DNA from: Nostoc sp. CENA543
GTDB lineage: Bacteria > Cyanobacteriota > Cyanobacteriia > Cyanobacteriales > Nostocaceae
Direction of reading: 5' to 3'
NCBI RefSeq assembly: GCF_002896875.1
Contig: NZ_CP023278.1
Coordinates: 5,278,501-5,342,500 of the forward strand
Length of the DNA stretch: 64,000 bases
Below the pieces are notes generated by a model. It was given only the letters and a program-made list of their open reading frames with translations. It was not told the DNA's origin and did not search any database. Position numbers and translations under genes: made by a program. Positions 40,895 through 64,000 of this stretch are shown here, in pieces; position 1 is the stretch's first letter; the number at the start of each line of letters is the position of its first letter.

Positions 40895-41458
40895 ATGATC
40901 GCAACCAAAGAAAACTTCCCCACCCTAACCCCCGAAGAATATTTCACTTGGGAAGAACAGCAACTAGAAAAACACGAACTGATCAACGGTCAAGTTTATG
41001 CCATGACAGGTGGCAGCGTAAATCATAGCCGCATTGCTGTCCGCATCACCACACTATTCTCCAATCATCTAGAAAATAGCCCCTGCGAAACTGGTAATTC
41101 CGACCTCCGGATCAATATTGTCGGCACAAATAACTACACCTACCCAGATGTCAGCGTCACCTGCGACGTTCGCGACAAAACCACAACCCAATATATTACC
41201 TACCCCTGCTTAATCGTCGAAGTCCTCTCCGCCAGCACCGAAGCCTACGACAGAGGCAGTAAATTCCGAATGTACCGCCAAAACCCAGCCTTAATCGATT
41301 ACCTACTAGTCAGTTCCACCAGCATCGAAATCGACCTGTATCACAAAAACGACGCAGGCGATTGGTTGATTATCAACTACAAAGCAGGCGACACAATCGA
41401 ACTCAAAAGTATTAACCTCAATTTCCCCATTGAACAAGTTTATCGCGGTTTAATGTAA
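40895..41458 (+). CDS. Uma2-family (DUF820) putative endonuclease
   Basis: About 187 residues from the ATG at 40895, which has AGGAG about 10 bp upstream; a GTG at 40862 gives a longer frame. The sequence follows the Uma2 pattern: TPEEYFTWEEQQLEKHELINGQVYAMTGGS, LRINIVGTNNYTYPDVSVTCD and PCLIVEVLSASTEAYDRGSKF. The aspartate and Glu-Val-Leu-Ser residues correspond to a PD-(D/E)XK nuclease core. Cyanobacteria carry dozens of paralogues of unknown role. The final codons (TTA ATG TAA) overlap the predicted left terminus of the Tn7-like element, so the C-terminus may have been re-set by insertion. Confidence 0.8.
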   Translation: MIATKENFPTLTPEEYFTWEEQQLEKHELINGQVYAMTGGSVNHSRIAVRITTLFSNHLENSPCETGNSDLRINIVGTNNYTYPDVSVTCDVRDKTTTQYITYPCLIVEVLSASTEAYDRGSKFRMYRQNPALIDYLLVSSTSIEIDLYHKNDAGDWLIINYKAGDTIELKSINLNFPIEQVYRGLM

Positions 41459-41609
41459 TTTAAAGTTTGGTTTTGCCGCAGTTTAAAGTTTGATTTTGCC
41501 ACCACATTGTCTGAAATCCCGGTAACTCAGTTCCACAAATATCCTAAGATAAGCAGTTTTTAAAGCCTGAGTTTGCCGATATAGCAATTTTAAAGTTTGA
41601 CATTGCCGA
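41459..41609 (+). repeat. TnsB-binding-site-like direct repeats at the transposon end
   Basis: Four direct copies of TTTAAAGYYTGRBWTTGCC start at 41459, 41482, 41559 and 41589. The spacing is 23, 77 and 30 bp, resembling the arrays of TnsB sites at Tn7-family ends. They fill the gap between the Uma2 stop codon and the tnsAB start and probably also place the tns promoter under TnsB control. Confidence 0.8.
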
Positions 41610-41673
41610 AATAGTCTGGACTTGTTATGGTGTTTTTATAGGTAAAATTGTACTAATTTCAGAGGAGATAACC

Positions 41674-44436
41674 ATGCTCTATGATGTCGATTTTCAAGCA
41701 TGGTGTAATAGTTTGCCGCTCTCCCAACAACAAAGAGATTTGGTTAACCAAATTAGAACTTCCCCTCCTGCTCGTAAAGTCAAAGGAGGAGGAAGAAACG
41801 TTCATGGCCCCTATGCTAGCTCAAAGATGGGTAGAACGATTCAATTTGAGTCTCATACTGTTGAATTACCAGCTATGACTCAATTTTATGAATATGACGA
41901 CCAAGTTTTAGAATATTGGGATCAACCGATTAAATTCAGTATTAAATGCTCACCACAAGGTAAACAAGCCACAACTATCAGTCATTATCCCGATTTTTTT
42001 GTAATGAGAAAGAATTGTTGTGGTTTTGAAGAGTGGAAAACAGAGAAAAGACTGGAAAAACTTAGTGAGGAACAGCCTTATCGCTATCAAAAAATAGAAA
42101 AACAATGGGTGGATGTCATTGTTCAGGAATATATCGAAAGCTTAGGATATTATTATCGTCTTCGCTCTGATAGTGAAATTGATTGGGTCAAATATCGCAA
42201 TCAGAAATATTTACAACCCTACAAACAAGGATATTTAAAGCAACAATATATCCTTAATGACCAAGTAGAAGCCAATGTTCAAGAGATTATCGTTAATTAT
42301 CCCGGTATTAACCTCACCAATCTGTTTGAGAAGGCGAAAAATGCCACTATTGATGATATTAATACCTTAATTGCCCTCGAAAAAGTCTATGTGAATTTAA
42401 GCGAAGTAGCTTTAGTGGAGCAAGAGAAAGTTCATCTATTCCGTGATCAAGCTACAGCCGAAGCTTATATCACGGCCACTCACGATTATTGTGAACCTGT
42501 ATCCAGCAATGTGCCGATCGTTGAACTTAAAGTGGGGTCATCATTTTTGTTAGATGGAAAAAGCCTCACCATTGACCATATTGGGGAAAGTAAAATCATT
42601 TTTAGAGGAGAACAAGGAATTATTCGCTGGACTTATGCAGAATTTCAACAATTAATCGAATTAGGAGAAATTAGTAATCTTCAGACAGAAAACCACACAA
42701 CTTTAGATGAGGAAGGATGGCAATACTTTCTAGAGGCCAGTCCTAAAGCCTTAGAAACTGCAAATTATCGTTATGCAGCTATTAAGCATTTTTTAGGAAA
42801 AGAAGCTGATAATTCTCAAAAATACGATTTATCAGAACGAACTCTACGCGACTGGAGAGCAAAATATCGAAAAGCCCAACAAAAATACGGATGTGGGTTT
42901 ATTGGCTTGATTCCCCAATATAAAGGCAATCCAACCCCCCGTTATTCTGATGAAGACTTAGAATTTATTGATACAGTGATTGAAGAACAATATGAAACTT
43001 CTAAACAAAAAAATGTTTGGCAGACGTATGAATTTTTAAAGGATGAATGGCAGAAAGTGGGACGAATTTCTCCTGTTCCCAGTCATACCTTTTATTACGA
43101 GAGAGTGAAAAAACGAAACAGCTATCAACAAACTAAAAAACGAATGGGATCTCGTGCAGCAAATAATCTGTTGGGGCCTTGGTTAATTCAACCTACCACT
43201 CCCCGTCATGGAGATCGCCCGCTCGAAATTGTTCATATTGACCATACACAGCTTGATGTTGAGTGTATATGCCCCTATAGTGGCAAAAATTTAGGCAGAC
43301 CTTGGGTAACAGGCATGATTGATGCCTATAGTCGGAGGATTTTAGCTTTATACCTTACCTTTGATAATCCGAGCTACCGTTCTTGTATGATGGCTATTCG
43401 CATCTGTGTACAACGGTTTGGACGATTTCCTGAATGGATTGTTGTGGATAACGGAAAAGAGTTTAGTTCTACTTATTTTGAGACATTGTTAGCGCGTTTT
43501 GAAGCCAGCAAAAAGCATCGTCCCAAGGATTTCCCTAAATTTAGTTCAATTATTGAACGTTGGTTTGGCTCACAAAATACTGAATTTATTAATAATTTGA
43601 GGGGGAATACCCAAATCATGAAGCACGTCCGCCTCGTTAAAAAAGCAAATAATCCCAAGAGTTTAGCTGTCTGGAATTTAGAAGAATTATACGATTATTT
43701 GGCATTTGGTTATGCTTATGGAGTTTATGATAAAGCAGAACATCCTGCTTTAGAAGGAATGTCACCTCAAAAGGCTTTTGAATTAGGGTTAGCTAAAACG
43801 GGACATCGCCCTCATCAATATATTAAATATGATGAGCAATTCAAGATTTTAACTTTACCGACGAACAATAAAGGAATGGCCAAAGTTATTCCTGGTCAAG
43901 GAATTAGAGTCAACTATCAAAATTATTGGACAGATGAATTTTACAGTGTTGAGAATCAATGTATTCCCGTTCGCTATGACCCACTAGATTATGGTGTTAC
44001 TTATGCCTATGTTAATAATCATTGGGTAAAGTGTTTATCTAATTATTATATGAAGTTTCAAGGACATTCAGAGAAGGCAGTAGCAATAGCCACAACAATT
44101 TGCAGACGAAAACGGCAAATCTATAATCAAAGTCAATATGTAGGTTCTAAAGAGATTGTGGACTTACTTAATAATGCGGAAGAGCATGAAGAATTAATAC
44201 TACAAATTCGTCGAGATCAATCTGCTAAATTAGTTTTCAATTTAATTGAAGGAAAACTGAGTAGTGCGGTATTATTAAATACATTAAATACTGAACAACA
44301 TTCATATCAAGATAGTCAAGCAATAGAAAAAAATCTAGATTTAATAGATTTAAAAGAGGAGAGTTTACAGCCTAGTCTACCCAAAAAATTTAATCCTGAT
44401 GACATTAAGGCTTTTGCTGAAGAGGAATTGTGGTAA
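41674..44436 (+). CDS. tnsAB: TnsAB fusion: TnsA-type endonuclease plus TnsB-type DDE transposase
   Basis: 920 residues. Residues about 50-200 form a TnsA-like nuclease, with QP in YWDQPIKF, Asp107 in HYPDFFV and Glu120-Trp-Lys122 (PD-(D/E)XK set intact). Residues about 380-490 contain helix-turn-helix regions. The DDE core has Asp523 (HIDHTQLD), Asp592 (VVDNGKEF) and Glu628 (SIIERWFG), a D-35-E spacing. TnsA cuts the 5' ends and TnsB the 3' ends, so the fusion implies cut-and-paste transposition and not cointegrate formation. AGAGGAG precedes the ATG by 8 bp. It overlaps tnsC by 7 nt. Confidence 0.93.
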   Translation: MLYDVDFQAWCNSLPLSQQQRDLVNQIRTSPPARKVKGGGRNVHGPYASSKMGRTIQFESHTVELPAMTQFYEYDDQVLEYWDQPIKFSIKCSPQGKQATTISHYPDFFVMRKNCCGFEEWKTEKRLEKLSEEQPYRYQKIEKQWVDVIVQEYIESLGYYYRLRSDSEIDWVKYRNQKYLQPYKQGYLKQQYILNDQVEANVQEIIVNYPGINLTNLFEKAKNATIDDINTLIALEKVYVNLSEVALVEQEKVHLFRDQATAEAYITATHDYCEPVSSNVPIVELKVGSSFLLDGKSLTIDHIGESKIIFRGEQGIIRWTYAEFQQLIELGEISNLQTENHTTLDEEGWQYFLEASPKALETANYRYAAIKHFLGKEADNSQKYDLSERTLRDWRAKYRKAQQKYGCGFIGLIPQYKGNPTPRYSDEDLEFIDTVIEEQYETSKQKNVWQTYEFLKDEWQKVGRISPVPSHTFYYERVKKRNSYQQTKKRMGSRAANNLLGPWLIQPTTPRHGDRPLEIVHIDHTQLDVECICPYSGKNLGRPWVTGMIDAYSRRILALYLTFDNPSYRSCMMAIRICVQRFGRFPEWIVVDNGKEFSSTYFETLLARFEASKKHRPKDFPKFSSIIERWFGSQNTEFINNLRGNTQIMKHVRLVKKANNPKSLAVWNLEELYDYLAFGYAYGVYDKAEHPALEGMSPQKAFELGLAKTGHRPHQYIKYDEQFKILTLPTNNKGMAKVIPGQGIRVNYQNYWTDEFYSVENQCIPVRYDPLDYGVTYAYVNNHWVKCLSNYYMKFQGHSEKAVAIATTICRRKRQIYNQSQYVGSKEIVDLLNNAEEHEELILQIRRDQSAKLVFNLIEGKLSSAVLLNTLNTEQHSYQDSQAIEKNLDLIDLKEESLQPSLPKKFNPDDIKAFAEEELW

Positions 44437-45554
44437 TGGTTACAAATCGTCGTTTCCCTCAAGAATTTTTACAAGCACCAACTGATAATAAACTTAAGTA
44501 TTTTAAAGATATAATTGTTCCTCATCGCAATATTAAACTGGTTCTAGACCAGCTACTAAAAAATGCTATAGAACCGGATGATGCTTTAGTTTATCTAGTA
44601 TTTGGGGTAACAGGGGTAGGAAAATCACGGTTAAAAGCAGAATTTGAAAAACGATTGCTTAAACATTTTGCAGACGAAATTATTTCTAATCCAGGAAGTT
44701 TAGTGGTAGGAGGAATCGAGGTAGATGGTGCTGAAGCAGGAAAGTTTAACTATTCTAACTACTATATTCAAGTTTTGGAATCTTTGAAGGAAGTTTTAAT
44801 TGATTATAAAGAAAATTATGGAGTTGATTTAGAGGATGACAACTCAGATAACCTAATAGGAGATCATGAAGGAAGAAACTCTAAAGCTTTGCGTCGAACA
44901 ATACAAAAGGTTTTTCTACACCGTCAATTAAAAGCTTATACCTTAGATGAAGCACAGCACTTATTTGATGTTGCGGGAGGAAGACAAATAAATGTTCAAA
45001 TGAACTGGCTTAAGTCACTGGCTAATAAAACTCAAACAGTTCATATTTTATTTGGAACTTATGAACTTTTAAAATGTCAAGAAGTCAATGGTCAAGTGGG
45101 AAGAAGAAGTGAAGATTATTATTTACCTCCCTACTATCTGACTAAACCGGAAGATCAACAAGAATTTATTAAAGTAATTAAGACTTTACAACAGTATTTG
45201 CCAGTTGAAAATGAACCCCAATTAGAGGAACATTGGGAATATTTTATGAAATACTCGATAGGGTGTGTGGGCATTCTTAAAAGTTGGTGGTATCGCGCTC
45301 TCAAAAATGCGTTAGATGAGGGGGCTAAAACAGTGAGGATGAAAGATTTTAAAGCGAGGGAATTATCAGCAGGAAGACGAAGAACAATTCAAGAAGAGTT
45401 AAAAGCAGGAGAAAGCCGTTTAGCTAATCTATATACGAACGAGCAAAAAGATGAAAATCCTGAATTTACCAATTCTCAACCAGAGAAAAAAGGTAGCAAA
45501 GTTGGGGAACGTAAGGTAGGAAGAGACTTAGTAGGAGTTAATCAAGAGGGATGA
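44430..45554 (+). CDS. tnsC: TnsC-type AAA+ transposition regulator
   Basis: 374 residues with Walker A GVTGVGKS (Lys65), Walker B AYTLDEAQHLF (Asp173-Glu174) and a following sensor region ILFGTYELL. TnsC forms ATP-dependent filaments on DNA that connect the target selector (TniQ/TnsD) to the transposase. The C-terminal about 60 residues are charged and probably flexible, as in TnsC tails that touch TnsAB. It overlaps both neighbours (7 nt with tnsAB, 4 nt with tniQ), so the three are one operon. Confidence 0.93.
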   Translation: MVMVTNRRFPQEFLQAPTDNKLKYFKDIIVPHRNIKLVLDQLLKNAIEPDDALVYLVFGVTGVGKSRLKAEFEKRLLKHFADEIISNPGSLVVGGIEVDGAEAGKFNYSNYYIQVLESLKEVLIDYKENYGVDLEDDNSDNLIGDHEGRNSKALRRTIQKVFLHRQLKAYTLDEAQHLFDVAGGRQINVQMNWLKSLANKTQTVHILFGTYELLKCQEVNGQVGRRSEDYYLPPYYLTKPEDQQEFIKVIKTLQQYLPVENEPQLEEHWEYFMKYSIGCVGILKSWWYRALKNALDEGAKTVRMKDFKARELSAGRRRTIQEELKAGESRLANLYTNEQKDENPEFTNSQPEKKGSKVGERKVGRDLVGVNQEG

Positions 45555-46540
45555 GTATTTATGAGGAGATTTGGAGTCCAAAATCTCTAGAAATCCCGCA
45601 ACGGAGTCGCTTATTTTGTCTTGAACCTGTGGCGGTGGGAACTCCCTACACAGAAAGTCTTAGTAGTTATCTCCATCGTTTAGCCCAGGCGCATTGTTTA
45701 ACCTCTCAAAAGCTCGTTATGGGAGAAATTGCGCCACTTATCCTCAAAGATGAGGATAAATCTGAGCTATTGGTAAAAAATCTGAGTCACTTATTGGGAA
45801 ATAGCGACGCGAAACCAGCTATCAACGGAATGCGAGAAATGACAGGAAAGTTAGTCACTGTCTTAGAAGAGTTAACAATGCGTCGGGATTTACGCTTTTT
45901 GACCCTTTTAAGCTGGAAAGGAATGATTTATGACAAGGGGTTATTTCGGAACTATCGCGCTTGGTGTCCTTGTTGTTGGCAAGAGTGGATGCAGGAGAAC
46001 AAAACTATCTATGAACCATTATTATGGTCATTTAAGAATGTGGAATTTTGTTTGATTCACAAACAGCGATTAGTAGAAGAATGTCCTCGTTGTGGTTCGC
46101 GTTTACCTATGATTGCTAAGTTTTCACCTGCGGGATTTTGTTCTCGTTGTTACGGGTGGTTAGGACAGGAAATTAAAGGCGAGGCAGAAATAGAGAAATA
46201 TAGAGTTAATATTCAAGGAATTAGCGAATTAATTGCACTTACTCCCCAATTAGGATATAAACCCATCCCAATCGAGTTAACCCGAAAATTACAATTAATT
46301 TTGTTAGTGTTTGAACAAGCAATTGGCAAGGATGTGAAGTTATTGGGAGATTTAGGGGGAGTTATGGAGTCGTTGAGAATAGCTTCAACAAGAAATCAAA
46401 GTCAACCTTATCATTTGGTGAAGTTGATTATTCCTGTGTGTGAGAAGGCGAAGATTAGTGTATCCCAGTTGTTTGGGTCAGATTTTCAGGAATTGGGCAA
46501 GACATTGTTCGGTAATTTTAGTTTGGAATTAAAGTTGTAA
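45551..46540 (+). CDS. tniQ: TniQ/TnsD-family target-selection protein
   Basis: 329 residues. The N-terminal TniQ domain includes PYTESLSSYLHRLAQAH. Two zinc-binding knots follow, WCPCCWQEW and CLIHKQ...CPRC...FCSRC, then a helical C-terminus. TniQ bridges Cascade and TnsC in RNA-guided transposition; larger TnsD versions bind a fixed attachment site. At 329 residues it is shorter than Tn7 TnsD, and which role it plays cannot be decided from sequence. I-B CASTs often carry two such proteins, the second near the cas genes; that would be beyond 64000. Confidence 0.88.
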   Translation: MSIYEEIWSPKSLEIPQRSRLFCLEPVAVGTPYTESLSSYLHRLAQAHCLTSQKLVMGEIAPLILKDEDKSELLVKNLSHLLGNSDAKPAINGMREMTGKLVTVLEELTMRRDLRFLTLLSWKGMIYDKGLFRNYRAWCPCCWQEWMQENKTIYEPLLWSFKNVEFCLIHKQRLVEECPRCGSRLPMIAKFSPAGFCSRCYGWLGQEIKGEAEIEKYRVNIQGISELIALTPQLGYKPIPIELTRKLQLILLVFEQAIGKDVKLLGDLGGVMESLRIASTRNQSQPYHLVKLIIPVCEKAKISVSQLFGSDFQELGKTLFGNFSLELKL

Positions 46541-46652: not shown

Positions 46653-47969
46653 TTAGCCAATACCTTCGCTTGGAATGAAACTCAGGGCTTGCTCAATTGA
46701 TTTCAGAGCTGATTGAATATCTGCACTCAGTGCATCTGCCTCAGCTTTAATTACAGATACACCCTTCTCGATTTCCGTCAGAGATTTTTTGATAGTTCTA
46801 ATACGCCCCAAAGCTGTGCGAATTTGTTCAAGCTGCTGTTCAATAACAGTCACATCTATCTTTGACTGATAAGTACGCAGTTGATTCACTCGTTGTTGAA
46901 TGACTAGAAACCGAATCGCAACAATCAAAAATGGCTGAGTTGTAGCAATCCAGTAACCAGCTTCAGTCACACCCTCTGCCCAATCACCAATTTCCTGTGC
47001 TAGTCCCTCACGGGAATAACTTAAAAAAATTGCTGCATTTGCAGAACGCCGCAGCATCGCCTGCTGTAAGTGTTGAGCAATTGCTTGGCGACCAAACGGC
47101 TTGGAAGGTCTGTTTCTCGCTTCAATTACAATTGATAGTTCTATTGCCGCTAGGGATTTGCTAGTGAACTTGACGAGAATATCACCTGTATCCTTATCGT
47201 TACCAATATGCTCTACCTCTATGCCATTAGACTTTGACCAAGTTTGTTGTAATTCACCAACAACTAATTCTTCATAGCTAATACCTTTTGCTGTTGTCTG
47301 TTGAAGTACCTGTTGTGTCACCTGGGTGTCGTGGATTTCTAGAGTCAGTTTTTCCACCTGTTCAATCAAGGGTTTGATAGACTCAGCAACTACATTTCTC
47401 ACTGTCACTGCCAAAGTACCGTTTTCAGTAGTGACATTTGCTAATGCTGCTTTGAATGCCCCTTGAATAGAATCTGAGCGTTTGGCATCTAATAAATGAC
47501 GTAATGTTTGAAGGAAGCGACCAACAACAGAGGTTTCCTTGGCAGGGTCGATGTCCTGTGTCAGCAAAGTGCTGACGCTATTGAGTTTCTCTGTGAGAAT
47601 AGCTGAAGTTTGACTAATTTGGGATTGCAGTGGGGCTAATAATTGACCATTATCTGTGCCAATCTGACTAACCAATTCTTGCTGGAAAGATTCAGCAATC
47701 ACTTTGACAGCTTGGTGAAACTCCACCAATAAAGATTCCATCTGCTGCTTGACTAATTCGTTGCCGTTACGAGCTTGAGTAGTTTGCAAGCAGAGAAATC
47801 CCAACTCAAAGGCATCGAGACAAATATCTTCATATTCTGACTGGGGAAATTGTTTGAGGTAGCTGATGGCATTCTGAAGCGGGAGAGCCATGCGAGAAAT
47901 CAGGACATGATTCTCTGTGATTTCAATACTAAAGGGCAGATAGTAAGAGTCCTGAGTGGCGCGGTTCAT
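46653..47969 (-). CDS. Coiled-coil protein with PD-(D/E)XK-like segment, unknown
   Basis: 438 residues. The first about 215 are long amphipathic helices (coiled coil). A globular part follows at about 225-330: YEELVVGELQQTW, DTGDILVKF, LSIVIEARNRPSKPFGRQA and AAIFLSYSREGLAQEIG. The order of helix, Asp, Glu-x-basic and alpha/beta elements is that of restriction-endonuclease-like folds, with Arg where Lys is usual. A second coiled coil ends the protein. First cargo gene after the tns operon, convergent with tniQ. A defence role is plausible by context only. Confidence 0.6.
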   Translation of the reverse strand: MNRATQDSYYLPFSIEITENHVLISRMALPLQNAISYLKQFPQSEYEDICLDAFELGFLCLQTTQARNGNELVKQQMESLLVEFHQAVKVIAESFQQELVSQIGTDNGQLLAPLQSQISQTSAILTEKLNSVSTLLTQDIDPAKETSVVGRFLQTLRHLLDAKRSDSIQGAFKAALANVTTENGTLAVTVRNVVAESIKPLIEQVEKLTLEIHDTQVTQQVLQQTTAKGISYEELVVGELQQTWSKSNGIEVEHIGNDKDTGDILVKFTSKSLAAIELSIVIEARNRPSKPFGRQAIAQHLQQAMLRRSANAAIFLSYSREGLAQEIGDWAEGVTEAGYWIATTQPFLIVAIRFLVIQQRVNQLRTYQSKIDVTVIEQQLEQIRTALGRIRTIKKSLTEIEKGVSVIKAEADALSADIQSALKSIEQALSFIPSEGIG

Positions 47970-48073: not shown

Positions 48074-48358
48074 TTAATTTGGCGGTTGAGACTGATGCCA
48101 CTGTTCCAACAGAGGTTGAATGACCTCCGTGTTGGCAAGTAAAAAGTCAGCGACAGCCATAATTCTCTGGTAAGGTAATCCAGCAGCACGGCGACTGGCT
48201 TGTCCACCTAGCCAATGATAGGTGGTGGATTTTGAGATGGAGCAGATTTTGGCTAGTTCTTCATAACCTAATCCCCAACGGTAGCTAAAGTTTTGGGGGG
48301 AGATGAACATTTGGTTGTGCAGTTCTAGCAATTTCTGTGATTTTTGAGTTTCAGACAT
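48074..48358 (-). CDS. Small helix-turn-helix protein
   Basis: 94 residues with a clear HTH, WGLGYEELAKICSISKSTTYHWLGG, followed by a helical tail. The HTH (GYEELAKICSIS...TTYHW) resembles XRE/Cro-type DNA-binding helices in mobile or plasmid-borne cyanobacterial genes. Its start overlaps the preceding gene by 8 nt, so the two are co-translated. Probably a DNA-binding regulator of the cargo; no partner site identified. Confidence 0.65.
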   Translation of the reverse strand: MSETQKSQKLLELHNQMFISPQNFSYRWGLGYEELAKICSISKSTTYHWLGGQASRRAAGLPYQRIMAVADFLLANTEVIQPLLEQWHQSQPPN

Positions 48359-48662
48359 AATTGCCCCTAAGCTGTTCTAAGGATGACTGGTCTAGGGATT
48401 CGATATCTTCCTCAAAGGCGAAGTCGCAGGTACAGATTTCATGGGAGGGGCTACGTTCATCTAAAAGAACCAAGTAGTGTAACCCAGTGAGAATGCAACT
48501 GGCTTGGTGGGTATAGATAACTCCAATGATGCAACCAAAGTCGCCATTGGGTACTTGCCACCATCGTACCCACTCACCTAGTTGGAATCTCTGTTGGGGT
48601 AAGACTGGAGGGATTCGCTCTGGCAAGGCTACAGGCGGTATTGAAAGGGGTATCTCAGGCAT
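48351..48662 (-). CDS. Hypothetical protein, unknown
   Basis: 103 residues beginning with a Pro-rich segment (IPLSIPPVALPERIPPVLP), then a likely small beta-barrel (FQLGEWVRWWQVPNGDFGCIIGVIYTHQ) and an acidic tail. No recognised family. The upstream member of a two-gene unit with the HTH gene, divergent from the XRE regulator at 48761. Confidence 0.6.
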   Translation of the reverse strand: MPEIPLSIPPVALPERIPPVLPQQRFQLGEWVRWWQVPNGDFGCIIGVIYTHQASCILTGLHYLVLLDERSPSHEICTCDFAFEEDIESLDQSSLEQLRGNYV

Positions 48663-48737: not shown

Positions 48738-48761
48738 CTGCACTTTCTGAAGATTGTGCAG
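48738..48761. promoter_or_regulatory. Palindromic operator candidate at the XRE start codon
   Basis: CTGCAC (48738-48743) and GTGCAG (48756-48761) are perfect inverted repeats 12 nt apart; the second half ends on the first base of the GTG start. A TATAAT at 48717-48722 lies just upstream. The placement fits autorepression by the XRE protein. Confidence 0.5.
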
Positions 48762-55346: not shown

Positions 55347-56866
55347 GCCTCCTCTTGCCCACTTACAAGTTTATGAAGGCGTTCTATCTTCTCATGAAGT
55401 TTCTTTTGATTTTCAAGAATTCTAGCAGTCAATTCTGATGGATGCGGTAAATTTTCAATCTCCAAGCGATGAGGATTTCTAGCTGATAAATCATATTCAC
55501 GTTCAACCAGATTTTCTCTATCTACAAACCAACTATTATTAGTAAATTCCTCTTGGGTAACTTTTGCCAGACGATACGCAAGTAATTTTTGAAAAACTTG
55601 CCTTGTTTCAGCAAAATGTTCATCTGTAATGGGGTTATTTTTACTAAATTTCTTCAATTTTTCAGGTAGTGGCATTTCATAATAAAGCACTTCTTTTGTA
55701 GCACGGGAACGCTCAAAAAATAACAGTGCTGTTTTTACATCAGAATAAGGTGCAAAAGCTCCAGGCGGTAAACTCACTACTAAAAATAAGCTAAAATCAT
55801 TCAGCAGCATTTGCTTAACTGTTGCAAAAGCTCCACTCCTGAAAAGTGTTCCTGCTGGCACGACCATACCACAACGTGCTTTACTTGATAATTTTAGTTT
55901 TTTGATAATATGTTCAACTGCTAACAGTTCTGTAGCATTACTTTTTACAGGAAAATTCTCTTGAATTTGAGCATTTTCTTTGCCTCCAAATGGAGGATTT
56001 GTTAAAACGATATCAAACCGCTCTGAGACATTTTTTAAATTTTCTGCCAGGGTGTTGCGTCGGCGTATATCGGGAACTCTAACCCCATGCAATACCATAT
56101 TCATAGTACCAAGCAAGGCAGGTAGTGCTTTTTTCTCCTGCCCTACAAAAGTGTCATATTGAAGAATTTTGTGGTCTTTAGTTGTTTTCTCCTGTTTTTG
56201 CATATGTAAATATGCTTCTACCAAAAAACCACAGGAACCACAAAAAGGGTCATAAACAGTCTCCCCAATTTGAGGGTCAATTACCTCTACCATAAAACGA
56301 ATAATTGAACGGGGTGTGTAAAATTCCCCTGCCATTTTATTTTCGCTTCCTAGTCGCTTTAGTAAGTCCTCATAAATATGGGAAACAGTATGAATATCAT
56401 CAGCATTTTTAAAGTCAATACTATCGACAATTTCCAGCACATCTTTAAGGTTATAGGGTGAAGCGCAAACGATTACAGTGCGATCGCTGAAAATCCCAGC
56501 AATAACCTCACGTTCCGATGAACCATATAGACTAGCTAAATAAGATATCAGTTCTCCCCGCACAAACTGCATTAACTTTTCGCCATCCCATTCTGGCGTG
56601 GAGCGACGACCATTCTCTCCTATTTTTTGACCTAAAGCCTTGGGTATCCAGCTAGACCAGCGATAAGGCTCATCAATAACTCGCTTATAAGTTCTACCTG
56701 CTAGTTCGGCTTCTACTTCAAAAATTGCTTCCTGCTCATCAAAAAATTTCAAGAACAACAGCCAAGATAAATGTTCGACATACTCCATGACACCACCACA
56801 GTTGTCGTCGCGGCGTAATATGTCACAAGCTCGCCAAATGTCATTCGTTAGTTGTTCTCTACTCAC
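55343..56866 (-). CDS. hsdM: Type I restriction modification methylase subunit
   Basis: 507 residues. N-terminal HsdM_N helices (MSREQLTNDIWRACDILRRDD) precede the methylase with motif I YDPFCGSCGFLVEAY and motif IV IVLTNPPFGG. ENKMAGEFYTPRSIIRFMV is the conserved stretch before motif I. With HsdS it methylates adenines in the host target. It overlaps hsdR by 4 nt upstream and hsdS by 4 nt downstream. Confidence 0.93.
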   Translation of the reverse strand: MSREQLTNDIWRACDILRRDDNCGGVMEYVEHLSWLLFLKFFDEQEAIFEVEAELAGRTYKRVIDEPYRWSSWIPKALGQKIGENGRRSTPEWDGEKLMQFVRGELISYLASLYGSSEREVIAGIFSDRTVIVCASPYNLKDVLEIVDSIDFKNADDIHTVSHIYEDLLKRLGSENKMAGEFYTPRSIIRFMVEVIDPQIGETVYDPFCGSCGFLVEAYLHMQKQEKTTKDHKILQYDTFVGQEKKALPALLGTMNMVLHGVRVPDIRRRNTLAENLKNVSERFDIVLTNPPFGGKENAQIQENFPVKSNATELLAVEHIIKKLKLSSKARCGMVVPAGTLFRSGAFATVKQMLLNDFSLFLVVSLPPGAFAPYSDVKTALLFFERSRATKEVLYYEMPLPEKLKKFSKNNPITDEHFAETRQVFQKLLAYRLAKVTQEEFTNNSWFVDRENLVEREYDLSARNPHRLEIENLPHPSELTARILENQKKLHEKIERLHKLVSGQEEA

Positions 56867-59511
56867 CCAGTTTCCTCTTGATAAAGGCGACTTTGCACCT
56901 CATTTAATGTTTGTCGCAGATGGTTAATTGTACCAAAACGCTGAACAATTCCTGGAGCCTGCCCCATTTCCCGAAAAGGAGAAAGCCGGAATACTTGATT
57001 AAACATTTCTTGTACACCTGCCAAGCGATATTTGTCGAGCAAAGCTAAGATAACTTCACGCGCTTCTGGGGTTCGCTCTTCAAGAAATCGTTGTTCATAG
57101 TTTAGAAATGCTTCAACTCGCTCATCCCTGGTATGAACTGGCTTGTTAAAGGCGAGATGTGCTAGTAAGTCAAATTGGTCTGCTTTAGGTTGAGATAAAA
57201 CCTCTGCTAATACCTCTATGTGTATGCTTGCTGCTTCCAGTTCTTCCAAAAAAGCTTCTCTTTGGTTGGCATCTGTCCAAATTTCATAGAGTTGACTCCA
57301 CTTAGGCACATACCCTACAACTTTTGCCTTCGTGTAATCTAAATATTGTTCCAAAGTTAACTGTTCACCCGTAGACTCTACCAGAAAAGTTGCTTCATCA
57401 GCGATAGTGACTTCCAAACCCCGAACGCTAATTTTACCAATAGGTGCTTCTTGTGGTTTCAGCTCAATGACAACTGTTTGAGTTATATCTTGTTCTGTTT
57501 CAACTGTGACTGTTCGAGGACGGAACTTAGTACCAGTTACAGACAAGCGAAGTGTTCCTGCTGGCAGATGCTCAAAGCGGAAGTACCCGTCATCGTTAGT
57601 GCGGAGTGGGCCAAGTTGTTGATTAGCACCAATTAACACAGTCACAGCAGCACCGACTATTAAGTCGCCTATAACAGCATGAAGAACAGTTCCTTCCAAA
57701 ATACTTGTTCTTGGGCCTGTAATTTCAGTAGTTGGTACTTCAGGTGGACGATCCCACTCATCAAACAGTCGGGAAGCACCTACATAGTCGATAATGCGAA
57801 ACCACTCCTTGCCAGTCGTAGAATCAACCCGTGAACCTCGACCAATGATTTGCTTGAAGAGAATTGGTGAAGAAATTGGTTTCATAAATACGATATTCCG
57901 GCACGAGGGAACATCAACACCTGTACTTAAAAGTTCAGCAGTAGTAGCAACAACTGGTGTTCTGCGATCGCTATCTTGAAACTGTTCTAACCAGGTACTG
58001 GCTTCTCCTTCCTCAGCAATAATTGGTACTGCATAGTCTGAATAACCAAGACTAGAAAATTCATTTTGCAGGAGACGAGCAACCAATCTGGCATGGCTCA
58101 TATCTACGCAGAAGACCATTGTTTTATCGATCGCTCCAAAGCGATTGAGCAACCCTGCTAGATGTTTCACCATAGTTTCAGTGCGATCGGGCAAGGTAAT
58201 TTCTCGCTCAAACTGTGGCGTTAAATAAGTATCGCGCAACCTGGAATTTTCAGGTACATAGATTTCTGCTCCCTGAACTTGTGCATCTTCTACATGAAGT
58301 CCATCCTTATCAACACTGGTACGAACTTTATGCACCTTATAAGTTGCCAGAAAACCATCTTCAATCCCTTGACCTAAGCTGTAACTGTAAGCAGGTGGTT
58401 GCCAATTTCCTTTTGATGGATCATCATAATCAAGGGGAATTTCTGGTTCCTCACAGCAAAAATAAGCATAAGTATCAATACTTTCACTTTGTTTGGGCGT
58501 TGCTGTCATGCCCAATTGAATTGCACCTGAAAAATGCTGAAGGATAGCATTCCATTTCCCAAAACCAGAACGATGACATTCATCGATGATAATTAATCCG
58601 AAAAAGTCAGGCGGAATACTTTTGAATAAAGCCTTGCCATTGTCTTCTGCATCCAGTGCTTGATAAAGGGCAAAGTACAAATCACGGTTGTAATTAAACT
58701 TGCCTCCCCTAATTATTCCGCGTGGATCAGCTTGTGTATTAGCAAAGGGAGAAAAAGCATTATAGGCTTGGTTACGTAGCGGAATACGGTCAGCGATGAA
58801 GAGAATAGGTTTTTTCAGCCAACCTGATTTTCTAAGTTTCCATACAATTTGAAAAGCTGTGAAAGTTTTACCAGTTCCCGTTGCCATTGTTAACAAAATA
58901 CGCTTTTGAGAAGTTATCATTCGCTCAATGACTCGGCGAATAGCTACTTCTTGAAAATAGCGCGGTTCTTTACCACAAATAGCAGCAGAGCAGAAGGGGT
59001 GAAGTAGGGGGTTGTTTTGCTGAAGTGGTTTAGTTATGTAAGTGCCTTTTACATCAGCCACTCGGTTACTTGTGAGCGCAACTTTCTTCCTGCGGTAATT
59101 CTCCCAACGATTCCATAACTGTTCCGGTGCTGGAAAAGACGACAATTCACAACTCTGATTTGAGAAGAAATCAAACTCTACAAATCCATGTCCATTACTA
59201 GAATAAGCAAAAGGAACATCCAACATTTTGGCATAGGACTTTGCCTGCTCCAAGCCAGCATCTACCGCTTTCGTCTCATCCTTTGCTTCCAATACAGCAA
59301 TCATCTGCCCTTTGTAACGCAGCAGGTAATCTACTCGCCAAGGTTGACGGCGACGTGATTCTTCTCCTATCAAGTAAATTCTGCCAGAAGTAACAGCCTC
59401 TCCCTTTACGAAATAGTGTTCACGTTCAATTTGAGTTTCACCCCAACCAGATAATTTAATTTGGGGATCTATCAGCTTTGCCCGTGTGTCCGCTTCGTTA
59501 TAAGGAGCCAA
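56863..59511 (-). CDS. hsdR: Type I restriction endonuclease subunit with an inserted Ig-like domain
   Basis: 882 residues from a TTG start with AGAGAGG upstream. The nuclease domain (about 1-130) shows VDYLLRYKGQMIAVLEAKDE (PD-ExK). The motor has Walker A MATGTGKT, DECH box IIIDECHRSGFG, and motif VI IIGRGSRVDS. At about residues 597-693 is a segment (EGTVLHAVIGDLIVGAAVTV ... DDGYFRFEHLPAGTLRLSV) that reads as a carboxypeptidase-regulatory-like beta-sandwich, which is not part of standard HsdR. The C-terminal helical domain resembles the EcoEI R-type C-terminus. Cuts unmodified DNA after translocation. First gene of the six-gene operon. Confidence 0.9.
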   Translation of the reverse strand: MAPYNEADTRAKLIDPQIKLSGWGETQIEREHYFVKGEAVTSGRIYLIGEESRRRQPWRVDYLLRYKGQMIAVLEAKDETKAVDAGLEQAKSYAKMLDVPFAYSSNGHGFVEFDFFSNQSCELSSFPAPEQLWNRWENYRRKKVALTSNRVADVKGTYITKPLQQNNPLLHPFCSAAICGKEPRYFQEVAIRRVIERMITSQKRILLTMATGTGKTFTAFQIVWKLRKSGWLKKPILFIADRIPLRNQAYNAFSPFANTQADPRGIIRGGKFNYNRDLYFALYQALDAEDNGKALFKSIPPDFFGLIIIDECHRSGFGKWNAILQHFSGAIQLGMTATPKQSESIDTYAYFCCEEPEIPLDYDDPSKGNWQPPAYSYSLGQGIEDGFLATYKVHKVRTSVDKDGLHVEDAQVQGAEIYVPENSRLRDTYLTPQFEREITLPDRTETMVKHLAGLLNRFGAIDKTMVFCVDMSHARLVARLLQNEFSSLGYSDYAVPIIAEEGEASTWLEQFQDSDRRTPVVATTAELLSTGVDVPSCRNIVFMKPISSPILFKQIIGRGSRVDSTTGKEWFRIIDYVGASRLFDEWDRPPEVPTTEITGPRTSILEGTVLHAVIGDLIVGAAVTVLIGANQQLGPLRTNDDGYFRFEHLPAGTLRLSVTGTKFRPRTVTVETEQDITQTVVIELKPQEAPIGKISVRGLEVTIADEATFLVESTGEQLTLEQYLDYTKAKVVGYVPKWSQLYEIWTDANQREAFLEELEAASIHIEVLAEVLSQPKADQFDLLAHLAFNKPVHTRDERVEAFLNYEQRFLEERTPEAREVILALLDKYRLAGVQEMFNQVFRLSPFREMGQAPGIVQRFGTINHLRQTLNEVQSRLYQEETG

Positions 59512-59813: not shown

Positions 59814-59977
59814 AAGTCACACCACGAATCACCTTACACTTATTTTTCCCGACATCGGGAATCTAGGAATTGAGCAACGCCTAACGGCAATAAGCCACGA
59901 ATCATCCAGTATTGCGGGAGGGTGATTCTTATCCCCAAAATTTGAGCAACGCCTAACGGCAATAAGCCACGAATCAT
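59811..59977 (-). CRISPR. Mini CRISPR array: two perfect repeats, one degenerate repeat, two spacers
   Basis: Identical 36-bp repeats occupy 59942-59977 and 59870-59905; on the minus strand they begin ATGATTCGTGG and end GGCGTTGCTCAA. The spacer between them is 36 nt (59906-59941). A second spacer of 37 nt (59833-59869) is followed by a repeat that keeps only its first 11 bases well (GTGATTCGTGG, 59832-59822) and then diverges, so this is the terminal repeat. Orientation is the same as the cas genes, whose stop is 248 bp upstream. The second spacer contains a perfect 7-bp inverted repeat. Arrays this short are common in CRISPR-associated transposons. Confidence 0.85.
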
Positions 59978-60116
59978 AGCAAAGGTGAAAACCCTTAACT
60001 GAGGAAGGCTCATTTACAATCTTACAAGTACCTTCCAGATCGAGAAACCAAAAACACAAAATTTACCAAAGTTACCCTTACTTTCAGCCCCTCAAACCCA
60101 GTGCCGATAAACTGTC

Positions 60117-60146: not shown

Positions 60147-60225
60147 TAAATTACTATATCCCTTACCGTGTAAACCTTCCCGCCATTCTTTGACCCTAAA
60201 TTCCCTTTCCCATAAGAGATACTTG

Positions 60226-60864
60226 TCAAATTGGAGATTGAATCATCGTCCACGCCAAATCAGGAGGTGGAGAGCTTGGCATTTCCTCAATCCGATACCT
60301 CAAAAATCGGGTATTTCTTGACCCCACATGGTCAACCCAATAGGGTAAGGTTAACCTGCCTCGATTATCCTTAATCGCCCACTGTCTCACCCCCTCTAGA
60401 TAATCTTGGGAGACAAGTTTAATCGTTTTAATCAACTGGTCACTTTCACCTAAAAATAAACAACCAAACCGTCTTACTAGCTCAGGATGGTCAAACGCTA
60501 ACTGTATTCTCTCCCTTAAACTTGGTTTTATCTTCTCCCCGTCAGAACGAATCCAAATCAAACACTTCAGATTAGACAAAACTTCTTGATAACAGGGAAT
60601 AACATTCTCTGGATTACTAAAATCAGCATTCTTAAACCGTCTCATTTGACGCAAAATCCGCGACTTTTTGGGGCTAGATAACATTGCGATCGCCAATTCT
60701 ACCCCACAGTGGCGATAGACATCCGTTTCCCCTACCAAAGACAACAACATCCCATACACTGTTGCTGGAGGAGGGACAGGATAGGTTTTTCCCATTTCCC
60801 TTGCATGGGACTCCCGAAAAGTCGCAAATGGAACATCCACATAGAGAATTAATGGTGCAGTCAT
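60226..60864 (-). CDS. cas5: Cas5, type I-B (MYXAN-like)
   Basis: 212 residues. The N-terminal strand LYVDVPFATFRESHAREMGKT and the conserved YPVPPPATVYGMLLSLVGE loop are typical of the Cas5 family, with GCLFLGESDQLI further on. Cas5 holds the 5' end of the crRNA within Cascade, next to Cas8. The start ATG overlaps the cas7 stop by 4 nt. No endonuclease residues as in type I-C Cas5 are evident, consistent with a separate Cas6. Confidence 0.88.
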   Translation of the reverse strand: MTAPLILYVDVPFATFRESHAREMGKTYPVPPPATVYGMLLSLVGETDVYRHCGVELAIAMLSSPKKSRILRQMRRFKNADFSNPENVIPCYQEVLSNLKCLIWIRSDGEKIKPSLRERIQLAFDHPELVRRFGCLFLGESDQLIKTIKLVSQDYLEGVRQWAIKDNRGRLTLPYWVDHVGSRNTRFLRYRIEEMPSSPPPDLAWTMIQSPI

Positions 60865-61829
60865 TTTGATTCTTCTAAGACCAAATCTCTTTTAATGACT
60901 GCTTTCAAAGCTTCAGCCAGTTCATTGCGATTACGATAAATATGCGCCTGTTTAAAAGGAGAATTATCAAAATTATCTAATTGATGTAACTCCTTAACAA
61001 TTGTTCCCCCAATCCATAATGTACTAGGGTCAATCTGTCCGCATTCCACTTCATCTATAAACTCTTGTGTAAATCTTGCTTCCTTACTCTTAGGCTCGCA
61101 ATATTCAAAGCAGTAAGAAATATATGAAGGCAAATTATTTGTCCATTGAAATACAAAACTATCAGGACAAAAAGGATAATTAAAAATATTACTACTTCCT
61201 CCTACCTTGGGAAGATTCATAATGCCATCTATCAGAGGTAAAATCCGCGAAAAATCTCTGAGATGAGTGGCATCGATTCCAAAATAATATTGATATCGAG
61301 TTGCATGATATTCTGTGAAATGCAGCGATGTACTATCCTTGTCTCTGCCACTTTTTGCCCCTAACTTGACTGCACCATCATAAGGCGTTAGCGAAACAGC
61401 CATATTCATCCCTAAAGCACCCGTTCGCTGATTAAGAGTGCTGGCTTTTGTTTGTTTCTTTTTTCTTTTTGTTGTTGAAATCTCCTCTTCTGTTTCAGCA
61501 GACTCTAATAAAGCAAACCCAAAAATATCATCATCATAAAATTCTTCTGGATCGAAATCTTCACTTGTTAACCGATTAATATGTTCATCTTCATCCCAAA
61601 CTCGATTAACTAGATAACCTTGCTGTTGAAGATAAAAACGTAAAGCCCAACGAATCGCACTTGAACCTACGAAAGAATGAATTTTACCATTCCAATAGCC
61701 TTTTTGCAGAGTAGTCTTATTTCCTCGTCTCATGTCATGATTTAAAGAAGCTAAACCATAACGAGTGAGGACTGTTCCGTAAAGATAATAATTGGGGATA
61801 TTATTGTCATTCTTCTTCTGAGTCATCAT
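60861..61829 (-). CDS. cas7: Cas7, type I-B (DevR/Cst2-like)
   Basis: 322 residues with the RAMP-type backbone: YLYGTVLTRYGLASLNHD, GKIHSFVGSSAIRWALRFYL, GALGMNMAVSLTPYDGAVKLG and FHFTEYHATRYQYYFGID-type segments (here LHFTEYHATRYQYYFGID). Cas7 forms the helical filament along the spacer. An insertion of about 40 charged residues (about 95-135, DPEEFYDDD ... KRKKKQTK) interrupts the first third. It overlaps cas8 by 23 nt, so translation is tightly coupled. Start at 61829 or the next codon. Confidence 0.88.
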   Translation of the reverse strand: MMTQKKNDNNIPNYYLYGTVLTRYGLASLNHDMRRGNKTTLQKGYWNGKIHSFVGSSAIRWALRFYLQQQGYLVNRVWDEDEHINRLTSEDFDPEEFYDDDIFGFALLESAETEEEISTTKRKKKQTKASTLNQRTGALGMNMAVSLTPYDGAVKLGAKSGRDKDSTSLHFTEYHATRYQYYFGIDATHLRDFSRILPLIDGIMNLPKVGGSSNIFNYPFCPDSFVFQWTNNLPSYISYCFEYCEPKSKEARFTQEFIDEVECGQIDPSTLWIGGTIVKELHQLDNFDNSPFKQAHIYRNRNELAEALKAVIKRDLVLEESK

Positions 61830-63342
61830 TCATTTTGGTGAGTTTATTTTTGGGTTTATAACTGGCGATCGCTAACAAAGACCAAATTCTTAATTCTTGC
61901 CAAGGTATTTTTTTAATTAGTAGTACAATCTCTTCTTGATGCTGATTGAAATACTTATTTAATCCCCCTCTTACTAAAAAGTCGGATAAATATTCCTTAA
62001 ACGACAATTCATCATAACAATAGTTTAACTCTGCCCTTAACCGTTCAACTTTCTTCTTAATTGGAGGGTCTTTCCCTTCCTGGGCTTTGGCATACATTTT
62101 AGCAAAGTTGCCCTTCATAGCTTGCTGAAATACCTTAATAAAAATAAGATACTGCTTGTCTTCTTCACTATTCTCTGCCATTATTATGAATCCTTCGCGG
62201 TTGAAAAATAGCTGGTTAAATAAATATCCTTGTGAATCATCTATCACCAATTTTTCCCAAAAATTAGACCACCAATGGATTCCTTTCACTAAATTATCAG
62301 CAATCAGGGAGCGAATCGGATTCACTTTAATAAAAATTTGCTTGGGTTGAATCTTCTGATAATTAGTTGGAAAATATTTTTGAATCTGTTGATAAGTGAT
62401 TAAAGTATTTTTATCGATTTTAATTTCTTCTATACTCATCAATGTTCTTTGACGAGAATCTTTATTCATTTTTTCATATAACCAAACTTGACAAGCTTGA
62501 TAGTAGTCACCTTGAGGCTGAATATCGTCTAAGCTGTAATAAAGTAATCCAGCTTCACCAAGACTACTAACATGAAGCTGTTTCGTTTCTAATTGCTGTA
62601 ATCGCCATCTTCTTTGAGAAGCATCTTCAAAATCCTTGATTTCTGGAATCACCACCAAGTAGCGATGGGTTTTCTTTTCCTTCAAGTCTTCTGATGGAAT
62701 ATGAAGTAAGCAATAATGACAAACTACTGGTACAAATAATAATGCTAAGGCGTATTCAGGCTTTTCTTCCAGTTTTGTAGTATTCTGCGTCCTAGCATGG
62801 CGAACAATTCCCCCTAAATACAACCAACTGGTTATTTGAACATAATCCTGTCTGAGTTGTTGGGTATCTGTATCACATAACTTCTCTGCAAAGGTTTGAT
62901 GTGCGTACCAAGTTAGGGATTTATATTGATACTCGACTTTTTTTTCTTCAAACGTTAGTTCAGTGTTAACTAGCTTTCCTGCTTGATAAAACTTATTAAG
63001 ACGCAGAAAAACAGCACACATTCCCTCATGAATCTGGATTTTTTGAGTTAAATCTATTGCATTATTGTCTAATCCTGCTAAATGAATTAAACCTGTATCA
63101 TCTAATTGAAAAGACTCATTAATTAACCAAGATATGGCGACAAAATCACTTCCTTGCCAGAATAATTCAATAGTATCAGCAGTTAAAGACCATGATATGT
63201 GTCCTCCCCGTTGACGAGATGAGGGATATTGCTTTTCTAATTGCTTTAAAGTCATATAAAGTCCCGTCATTCCCACCCTGTGTATTATTGTCGTATCCGC
63301 AGCACCGAGAGATAGAGAAATTTTGGGTTGGGTAGCAACCAT
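61807..63342 (-). CDS. cas8: Cas8, type I-B (MYXAN/Csx13-like) large subunit
   Basis: 511 residues from the ATG at 63342, which lies 2 bp after the cas6 stop; the frame is open to 63396 but inside cas6. The N-terminal SLSLGAADTTIIHRVGMTGLYMTLKQLEKQYP is the signature of the I-MYXAN Cas8/Csx13 family. The C-terminal part has ALLAIASYKPK at its end. Cas8 reads the PAM and starts R-loop formation; in CASTs it also contacts TniQ. The N-terminal region carries no nuclease motif. No cas3 lies beside it, so DNA degradation is not expected. Confidence 0.85.
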   Translation of the reverse strand: MVATQPKISLSLGAADTTIIHRVGMTGLYMTLKQLEKQYPSSRQRGGHISWSLTADTIELFWQGSDFVAISWLINESFQLDDTGLIHLAGLDNNAIDLTQKIQIHEGMCAVFLRLNKFYQAGKLVNTELTFEEKKVEYQYKSLTWYAHQTFAEKLCDTDTQQLRQDYVQITSWLYLGGIVRHARTQNTTKLEEKPEYALALLFVPVVCHYCLLHIPSEDLKEKKTHRYLVVIPEIKDFEDASQRRWRLQQLETKQLHVSSLGEAGLLYYSLDDIQPQGDYYQACQVWLYEKMNKDSRQRTLMSIEEIKIDKNTLITYQQIQKYFPTNYQKIQPKQIFIKVNPIRSLIADNLVKGIHWWSNFWEKLVIDDSQGYLFNQLFFNREGFIIMAENSEEDKQYLIFIKVFQQAMKGNFAKMYAKAQEGKDPPIKKKVERLRAELNYCYDELSFKEYLSDFLVRGGLNKYFNQHQEEIVLLIKKIPWQELRIWSLLAIASYKPKNKLTKMNDDSEEE

Positions 63343-63344
63343 AA

Positions 63345-64000
63345 TCAGGTTTCCTCTTCTTCCTTGCTGCGAGTCGCTGGGACAAATATTCCACACATCA
63401 TCTTTCGTTTCCCACCAATCCCCTGTTCTTGCAAGGTTAAAGAATCTTCTGGGTTGAGTTCGCTGATTTTTACTCCAAATCCTCGAATTTCAAACTTTTT
63501 CTCTTCTTTATTGATGGTTAATTGTCTTTTTTGAGGCGTTCCATCTTGCCGGGTAAGTAATTCAATTTTCCCTTGTATTCCTATATTATCTAGTTGTCTT
63601 TGAACAGCTTCAATAAAGTTATTAGAGTCTTGAAAACCTTTAATTATCACTAATCTGGAATAGACACTTTCTGAAGAAATTAACGGTTTGTAGTCGGGAA
63701 TATCTAGTTGATAAGAATTTTGACCTATGTGAAAAGCTTGACCCGCTAAATAAGGATAAATTAAAGGAATTTGTTGATGATTAATCCGAATTTTTAGACG
63801 AGATTGAGCAGTTAGTTCAAGCAAATTGTTCCTAGTCGGAATTCCAGTAATTGGATGAATTCCAATAGATTTTAGTTCGTGAAGGCTAGGACAAATCCTG
63901 GACAAAGCACTATAGACAGCATAACCATTATCAAGAGGAATCGGTGCGCCTCTAAGTTTAAAGGTTAGGTCTAGGTAATATTCACTGTTTATAGCTGTGG
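63345..64000 (-). CDS. cas6: Cas6 crRNA endonuclease, N-terminus beyond window
   Basis: The frame is open to the window edge: reading on from 63905 gives YYLDLTFKLRGAPIPLDNGY then AVYSALSRICPSLHELKSIGIHPITG, the N-terminal half of an I-MYXAN Cas6. The codon at 63903-63905 (TTG) is internal, not a start. The C-terminus has the glycine-rich loop GIGGKRKMMCGIF that binds the repeat RNA. Cas6 cuts pre-crRNA within each repeat. Its stop is 2 bp from the cas8 start, so it heads the visible cas6-cas8-cas7-cas5 operon. Confidence 0.9.
   Translation of the reverse strand, partial: TAINSEYYLDLTFKLRGAPIPLDNGYAVYSALSRICPSLHELKSIGIHPITGIPTRNNLLELTAQSRLKIRINHQQIPLIYPYLAGQAFHIGQNSYQLDIPDYKPLISSESVYSRLVIIKGFQDSNNFIEAVQRQLDNIGIQGKIELLTRQDGTPQKRQLTINKEEKKFEIRGFGVKISELNPEDSLTLQEQGIGGKRKMMCGIFVPATRSKEEEET

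Follow-up and report, generated by a model that had tools for sequence, protein, structure and literature searches.

According to the available text of a review (PMC11406308), type I-B CRISPR-associated transposons (CASTs) include I-B1 elements such as AvCAST, a close relative of Tn7 which targets glmS, and I-B2 elements, which have a fused TnsAB and a tRNA-targeting TnsD. PmcCAST, from Nostoc 'Peltigera membranacea cyanobiont' 210A, is the I-B2 element examined by cryo-EM. Its TnsABCD transpososome has been solved (PMC12585508), and the names of PDB entries indicate that its Cascade-TniQ complex has been solved as well. The stretch studied here (the window) comprises 64,000 nucleotides of Nostoc sp. 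CENA543 (contig NZ_CP023278.1, positions 5,278,501 to 5,342,500; host genome 7.2 Mb). It contains, at 41454-64000, most of a 24,338-bp CAST, the remainder of which lies past the window end (adding 56999 to a position in locus L003 gives the window position). In the following, G-labels denote the genomes searched and L-labels denote loci. The initial annotation likened the element to the Anabaena variabilis class and sought its novelty in cargo and target. That class is however I-B1, with a glmS site, while the window element fits I-B2 (PMC11406308, available text); its tRNA-Val target is one already known for I-B2, and there is nothing unusual in its cargo. What appears to be new is that the guidance genes and the transposase genes have discordant histories. 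The core genes are listed below (window coordinates, strand).

41674..44436, plus: tnsAB, fused TnsA endonuclease and TnsB DDE transposase, 920 aa (Pfam)
44430..45554, plus: tnsC, AAA+ regulator (TniB/AAA), 374 aa (Pfam)
45551..46540, plus: tniQ, Cascade-linked target selector, 329 aa, 4-nt overlap with tnsC (Pfam)
59870..59977, minus: mini CRISPR array, repeats 59870-59905 and 59942-59977, spacer 59906-59941
60226..60864, minus: cas5, Cas5/Cmx5, TIGR02586 above cut-off
60861..61829, minus: cas7, Cas7/DevR, TIGR02585 at 2.5e-18 (66.2 bits, under the cut-off of 72.75)
61807..63396, minus: cas8, Cas8a1/Cmx1, TIGR03485/03486 above cut-off; PDB 8fcj_I
63345..64000, minus (start codon at 64007, past the window): cas6, Pfam Cas6 and Cas6/Cmx6
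64287-65663, plus: tnsD, 458-aa TniQ-domain protein, divergent from cas6, past the window

Guidance and transposase genes compared with PmcCAST

When compared with the PDB, the window TniQ (675 bits, 8fcu_P), Cas8 (1044 bits) and Cas6 (439 bits over 219 of 220 residues) are very close to the PmcCAST complex. TnsC and TnsAB match it less well, with 238 bits over 368 residues for the former and 769 bits over 857 residues for the latter. A Cas11 (8fcj_J) is likewise listed in the PDB entries and matches the C-terminal 121 residues of the window cas8 product. In the PmcCAST host itself (Nostoc 210A, locus L169), the first 102 TnsC residues are exactly those of PDB 8fcu_Q, and the TnsC of G019 matches that of PmcCAST at 796 bits. 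The same division is found in seven PmcCAST-type elements from seven genomes: their identity to the window element is 88-91% for TniQ and 89-90% for Cas8 (two elements tested), but 42-43% for TnsAB, 36-37% for TnsC and 39-41% for TnsD. Within either backbone (three and seven elements), TniQ is as variable as TnsAB and TnsC, and tniQ DNA is 88.8-93.2% identical across backbones, with a synonymous divergence (dS) of 0.17-0.41 (21 pairs). Since TniQ varies in the same way as its partners and the cross-backbone dS is low, the mismatch is not explained by slow evolution of TniQ. This explanation and that of a vertical history were rejected based on the within-backbone rates, the dS values and the trees.

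A search with a TniQ profile identified 20 named loci, of which 14 are on the PmcCAST backbone and six are nearest to the window backbone. The trees were built from 19 rows (seven window-backbone, six PmcCAST-type, two third-backbone and four cousin rows), comprising 13 of the 15 rows of the identity comparison (G130b and G161b were left out), five of the named loci, and Gloeothece. The remaining 15 of the 20 come from the same genomes as rows already used, belong to the PmcCAST type as well or have cut-off genes, and the TniQ of Cyanocohniella (L177) is truncated. The seven window-backbone rows form one clade, outside that of PmcCAST, for both TnsC (100/100) and TnsAB (100/99), while the approximately unbiased (AU) test rejects them as a clade for TniQ (p 1.9e-4). 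Conversely, a set of 11 recent TniQ sequences (four window-backbone, six PmcCAST-type and G203) is supported at 99/97 in the TniQ tree, and rejected as a clade for TnsC (AU p 1.4e-7) and TnsAB (AU p 7e-48). The AU tests thus reject one shared history for TniQ and TnsAB/TnsC. In the TniQ tree, Aphanothece is placed next to the recent set (100/100), Pleurocapsa, Xenococcus and Gloeothece are at an unresolved base, and the PmcCAST-type sequences branch inside Aphanothece and the window-type kin. These comparisons show that the window TniQ and Cas8 come from the same recent pool as those of PmcCAST, while its TnsAB and TnsC come from a different backbone. The TnsD of the window backbone is about equally far from all others, and is thus of no help in grouping. 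Among PmcCAST-type elements, the TnsD groups follow the adjoining tRNA: Val(TAC) for G136 and G122, Ala(GGC) for G096 and G130b, and Val(GAC) for G019, G107 and G161b.

It could be argued that the element is an ordinary I-B2 CAST, whose second backbone has already been described within I-B2, which would be compatible with a transfer between backbones. The gene content and the tRNA site are as described for I-B2, and exchange of TniQ partners in this branch is noted in the available text of the review (PMC11406308). We nevertheless find this unlikely, given the position of TnsAB and TnsC outside the PmcCAST clade and considering that an I-B2 Cascade on two TnsAB clades is not described in the literature searched, as far as its text was available.

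Direction and possible route of a probable cassette transfer

Gene order and sequence make it probable (about 0.8) that the tniQ-cargo-array-cas5-7-8-6 cassette is native to the window backbone and was transplanted, inverted, into the PmcCAST backbone, so that PmcCAST would be a hybrid. The layout of the PmcCAST-type element in G019 is cas6-8-7-5 ... tniQ(-) tnsAB tnsC tnsD, while in the window element and in G130a the same block is inverted and lies between tnsC and tnsD. In elements of PmcCAST type, tniQ is set apart and points away from tnsAB. The DNA match between the two backbones starts in the last tnsC codons (GTTAAT-CAAGAGGGATGA here, GTTAATCCAAGAGGGATGA in the PmcCAST-type elements), and a leader, GGTTAATC, which matches the 3' end of the window-backbone tnsC, lies no more than 25 nt upstream of tniQ in all 13 of the PmcCAST-type named loci whose tniQ start is intact (the fourteenth, L178, is without a TniQ start). 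The diverged relatives among the 20 named loci, three in number, are all on the window backbone. Their identities to the window TniQ, TnsC and TnsAB are 75, 80 and 83% for Aphanothece, 52, 67 and 66% for Xenococcus, and 47, 67 and 66% for Pleurocapsa (TnsAB being partial in the latter two). In these three and in Trichocoleus, tniQ adjoins tnsC, and all three genes diverge in much the same order.

Both backbones co-occur in G130 and in G161, and tRNA-Val(GAC) genes adjoin both of them (G138 and G130a for one, G019, G107, G013 and G161 for the other), which makes neighbouring insertions and recombination plausible. The exchange may have taken place through neighbouring insertions of both backbones followed by recombination, and the TniQ of PmcCAST would now work with a TnsC only 37% identical to its original partner.

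Several observations weigh against a transfer in this form. The tnsC-like leader is short, and in the four of the 13 loci for which shuffles were run its score was reached by 10, 2, 56 and 453 of 2000 shuffles; it is for these reasons support and not proof. The window TniQ is sister to the PmcCAST set with a support of only 84/75 (92/94 for the PmcCAST set itself), for TniQ and TnsAB the tree-building program gave a warning that long branches meet, and the Pleurocapsa TnsAB fills just 41% of the columns. Trees with 15 rows allow one branch between all CAST rows and the cousins (TnsAB 98/96, TnsC 66/54), and for TniQ do not reject holding the window-type and cousin rows together (p 0.38). Deeper relatives were needed because this set could not settle the question. 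The Cas8 tree (eight rows, two of them PmcCAST-type, rows with stops being excluded) interleaves the two backbones, which indicates more than one exchange and makes a single transplant too simple. The TniQ of Gloeothece, which belongs to a third backbone, is just as far removed (52%), and given the unresolved base of the TniQ tree the module need not have originated on the window backbone. Finally, the present copy is without a target-site duplication and about 80 bp of the target are gone, and the G138 element is also without one (ACCTG, GACAA).

The opposite direction, in which the module was native to the PmcCAST backbone and borrowed by the window backbone, would fit the near-identical modules on both, and PmcCAST-type loci do outnumber window-type ones (14 versus 6 of the 20 named loci). 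It appears quite improbable, however, as the three diverged TniQ sequences (75, 52 and 47%) all belong to the window backbone, the PmcCAST-type sequences branch inside Aphanothece and window-type kin, and the tnsC-like leader is on the PmcCAST side. Common descent of the module from one CAST ancestor, with TniQ and Cascade staying alike while TnsABC drifted, can draw on the grouping of all CAST rows in the 15-row TnsAB tree but is hardly credible in view of the within-backbone rates of TniQ, the low cross-backbone dS and the AU tests on 19 rows.

Returning to the transfer into the PmcCAST backbone, only four TniQ columns out of 329 residues (2, 7, 10 and 23) separate four donor-type from nine recipient-type rows, column 23 (C versus S) being the sole one fixed on both sides. 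The chance of all four falling in the first 23 residues is 3e-5 for 115 variable columns and 4e-4 for 48 informative ones, figures to be read knowing that the cut at residue 23 was chosen after the columns were seen and that related rows are not independent. The clustering could also stem from closeness to the breakpoint. In the PmcCAST recruitment complex, TniQ reportedly binds TnsC through its N-terminal part. We only tentatively suggest that TniQ and Cascade may form a self-contained cassette, swappable between Tn7-like backbones with TnsC less than 40% identical, and that re-matching may need little beyond the first 23 or so residues of TniQ; PmcCAST would then be the natural proof, with the window element near the donor.

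A third backbone was also observed. In G203 (L143) it has a TnsC 29-31% identical to that of the window, beside an 89% identical TniQ. The tniQ leader there, AGTTAATCCAAGAG, resembles that of the PmcCAST-type loci, and the sequence further upstream matches G019 by eye, as if this tniQ had come from a PmcCAST-type element. This third TnsAB/TnsC backbone also bears a diverged module for I-B guidance on a plasmid of Gloeothece verrucosa PCC 7822 (L182, typed conjugative); the TnsAB match begins at about residue 170, and the N-terminal TnsA part seems to be missing.

Class, ends and cargo of the element

The initial annotation of the locus as a type I-B CRISPR-associated Tn7-like element with defence cargo holds, with all core genes intact and both ends present. 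The genes tnsAB, tnsC and tniQ, which form one overlapping run behind the left end, as well as the cas6-cas8-cas7-cas5 genes, are intact open reading frames (ORFs) and, like the mini array, lie where they had been placed. The TnsA-like N domain (residues 75-165) and the rve domain (residues 536-612; 31.9 bits, slightly below the cut-off of 32.6) are in one 920-aa ORF. The proposed catalytic residues are present: all 15 aligned rows of TnsAB have D107, D523, D592 and E628, and 14 of them K122, while K65, D173 and E174 of TnsC occur in 15 of 15. The second tniQ/tnsD sought past 64000 is the 458-aa protein, followed by the right end and the tRNA-Val gene; both TniQ-domain proteins match PF06527. 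The cas5, cas7, cas8 and cas6 products match models of 'type I-MYXAN'. As predicted, neither cas3 nor cas1 is found beside cas6, the Cas1 and Cas3 models having no match inside the element (two Cas1 and one Cas3 score above cut-off elsewhere in the genome); no cas2 is among the listed ORFs of the element, for which no model search was made. The fused ORF and the tRNA-Val site, as opposed to separate TnsA and TnsB and a glmS site, make the element I-B2-like and not I-B1, given the available text of PMC11406308. The PmcCAST-family TniQ and Cascade, the two TniQ-domain proteins together with TnsC, and a set of type I-B cas5, cas6, cas7 and cas8 genes with an array and without adaptation and cas3 genes are also those of I-B2, from which only the TnsAB and TnsC clade departs. 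As far as its sequence tells, the element is a complete-looking, Tn7-like transposon of the I-B2 kind, predicted to be RNA-guided, and homed to tRNA-Val(GAC). By analogy with described I-B2 elements, TnsD would recognise the tRNA gene and recruit TnsC and TnsAB for homing, while the mini-array CRISPR RNA, Cas5-6-7-8 (a Cascade without Cas3) and TniQ would recruit these two proteins to a second class of targets.

The mini array consists of two identical 36-nt repeats and one 36-nt spacer, its strand being taken from the cas operon. The repeat occurs nowhere else in the genome (up to three mismatches), in which a common I-B-like repeat pattern was not found either. The spacer has no second copy in its own genome (up to three mismatches), no match in plasmids, and none in viral contigs, whether exact or with every sixth base left free. 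Three phage records matching 22 of its 36 nt at E 5 were taken as chance.

The ends and the adjoining site are as follows.

41454..41660, plus: left transposon end, terminus TGTAATTTAAAG and four TnsB-site-like repeats (41459-41477, 41482-41500, 41559-41577 and 41589-41607)
65791 (L003:8792): right transposon end, terminal letters ...CTTTAAATCACA
65823-65896, minus: tRNA-Val(GAC), past the right end

The repeat TTTAAAGTTTGNTTTTGCC has four matches in the window (up to three mismatches), all within 41459-41607, where 0.25 are expected, and four were reached in none of 100 shuffles. This search gave no match between 46540 and 59500, where a right end would have left the cas genes outside. The left terminus recurs in G138 and G130a. 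The right end lies 31 nt from the tRNA-Val(GAC) gene, a tRNA gene being the attachment site in I-B2 elements; this spacing fits the 30-33 nt reported for protein-guided insertion of the I-D element CyCAST (PMC10293859, available text). Both flank queries were matched, at least partly, in 13 of 13 genomes of the genus, and the empty site which had been proposed for a related genome was found in G208, of the same genus. There the two flanks (97 and 96% identical) adjoin each other with no element between them, in the order full-length Uma2 gene, about 80 bp, tRNA-Val, and TnsAB has no match in this genome. In the window genome the left end sits within the Uma2 gene, and the bases beside the ends differ (TTTAA versus CGATG). 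The sister element G130a, at tRNA-Val, has a perfect 5-bp target duplication (CAAAT), which argues that the ends are rightly placed; in the window copy, a deletion has probably occurred on the left. The Uma2 gene (40862-41458) lost its last codons through the insertion, a longer form being found in G208 (L141). It was considered as cargo left of 41454 and rejected, because the empty site identifies it as a chromosomal gene into which the left end has cut. A close Uma2 homologue is cargo in the G138 sister element (L038 4993-5625).

The cargo, mostly on the minus strand, comprises the following.

46653..47969, minus: 438-aa protein, no Pfam, PADLOC or NCBIfam match at E 0.001
48074..48662, minus: two small ORFs (94 and 103 aa), no family match
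48761..49024, plus: Xre-type regulator, 87 aa (Pfam HTH_3)
49235..50566, minus: HNH-like protein (PADLOC PDC-M62B, 2.3e-17; HNH motif by eye; no Pfam match)
50563..52182, minus: PtuA-like AAA ATPase (PADLOC PtuA, 3.1e-33; NCBIfam restrict_AAA_1, 1.6e-30, under cut-off)
52134..54125, minus: N6-adenine methylase, 663 aa (Pfam N6_Mtase)
54129..55346, minus: hsdS specificity subunit (Pfam Methylase_S)
55343..56866, minus: hsdM methylase (Pfam N6_Mtase and HsdM_N)
56863..59511, minus: hsdR restriction subunit, EcoAI-like (Pfam; NF046051, 687 bits, above cut-off)

The adjacent hsdR, hsdM and hsdS genes are those of a type I restriction-modification system. Residues 605-683 of HsdR form a carboxypeptidase-regulatory-like domain, which seems unusual in a restriction subunit. 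The putative PtuA-like ATPase (51.5 bits for NF041760 PtuA, against a cut-off of 500) and the HNH-like protein may be described as a Septu-like pair. Homologues of the Xre regulator (59-65%) end 53-71 nt upstream of tniQ in 13 of the 21 loci searched, all 13 of PmcCAST type, and no match was found in the limited stored flanks of the six window-backbone named loci; the regulator is a candidate controller of I-B2 elements. Defence cargo including restriction systems is known from many Tn7-like elements (PMC8649781, available text).

Relatives, significance and comparison with described CASTs

The kin of the window backbone are Nostoc sp. NMS9 (L170 = G138), G130a, Cyanocohniella LLY (L177 = G037), Trichocoleus FACHB-40 (L173) and Aphanothece hegewaldii (L179). 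They share the contiguous tnsAB-tnsC-tniQ, with 81-94% identity for TnsAB and 79-94% for TnsC. They differ in cargo, where this was examined (G138 and G037), and TniQ is truncated in G037. No characterisation of these elements was found in the literature searched, as far as its text was available. More distant are four cousins without a short TniQ (TnsAB 55-56%, TnsC 48-49% identical to the window's). G159, G117 and G108 count as cousins on account of having two long TniQ-family proteins each and a contiguous tnsAB-tnsC-tniQ-tnsD; the lack of Cas8 was shown for G209 only, where no Cas8 match was found. The G209 cousin occupies the same tRNA-Val(GAC) site and shares with the window element its right terminus TGTGATTTAAAG and flank, but has a 437-aa TniQ-family protein in place of the short TniQ (window TnsAB 55-57%, TnsC 49-52%).

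The modularity of Tn7-like target selectors is already in print. Neither two TnsAB clades with almost the same I-B2 guidance nor a hybrid nature of PmcCAST is described in the available text of the literature searched. If PmcCAST imported its TniQ and Cascade recently, the contact between TniQ and TnsC in its structures is a young partnership, and the window element offers an older pair, in other words a natural swap with TniQ almost constant and TnsC 63% changed. This is relevant to the way in which transposons come to be RNA-guided. Faure et al. favour an in-place tniQ/tnsD duplication, with few loci fitting exchange between transposons (PMC10293859, available text); for the prototype PmcCAST itself, exchange is the better account. 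The choice of compatible parts for DNA insertion tools may also benefit.

Compared with the described systems, the window element has a type I-B Cascade and two TniQ-family proteins in common with AvCAST (Tn7743, I-B1, Anabaena variabilis), which differs in being a close relative of Tn7 with a glmS site (PMC11406308, available text). It is much closer to PmcCAST (Tn7744, I-B2), with which it shares a fused TnsAB, a tRNA-Val gene as site, a 91% identical TniQ and an 89% identical Cas8 (452/508 to 8fcj_I). The two differ in TnsAB (43% identical) and TnsC (37%, both in 210A), in TnsD (43% over 444 aligned residues) and in the anticodon at the site, Val-GAC for the window element and Val-TAC for PmcCAST (read in G124). 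Whereas tniQ is divergent from tnsAB in PmcCAST, it is contiguous with tnsAB-tnsC in the window element, and the inversion of the cassette and the difference in the ends were seen in the PmcCAST kin G019 and not in 210A itself.

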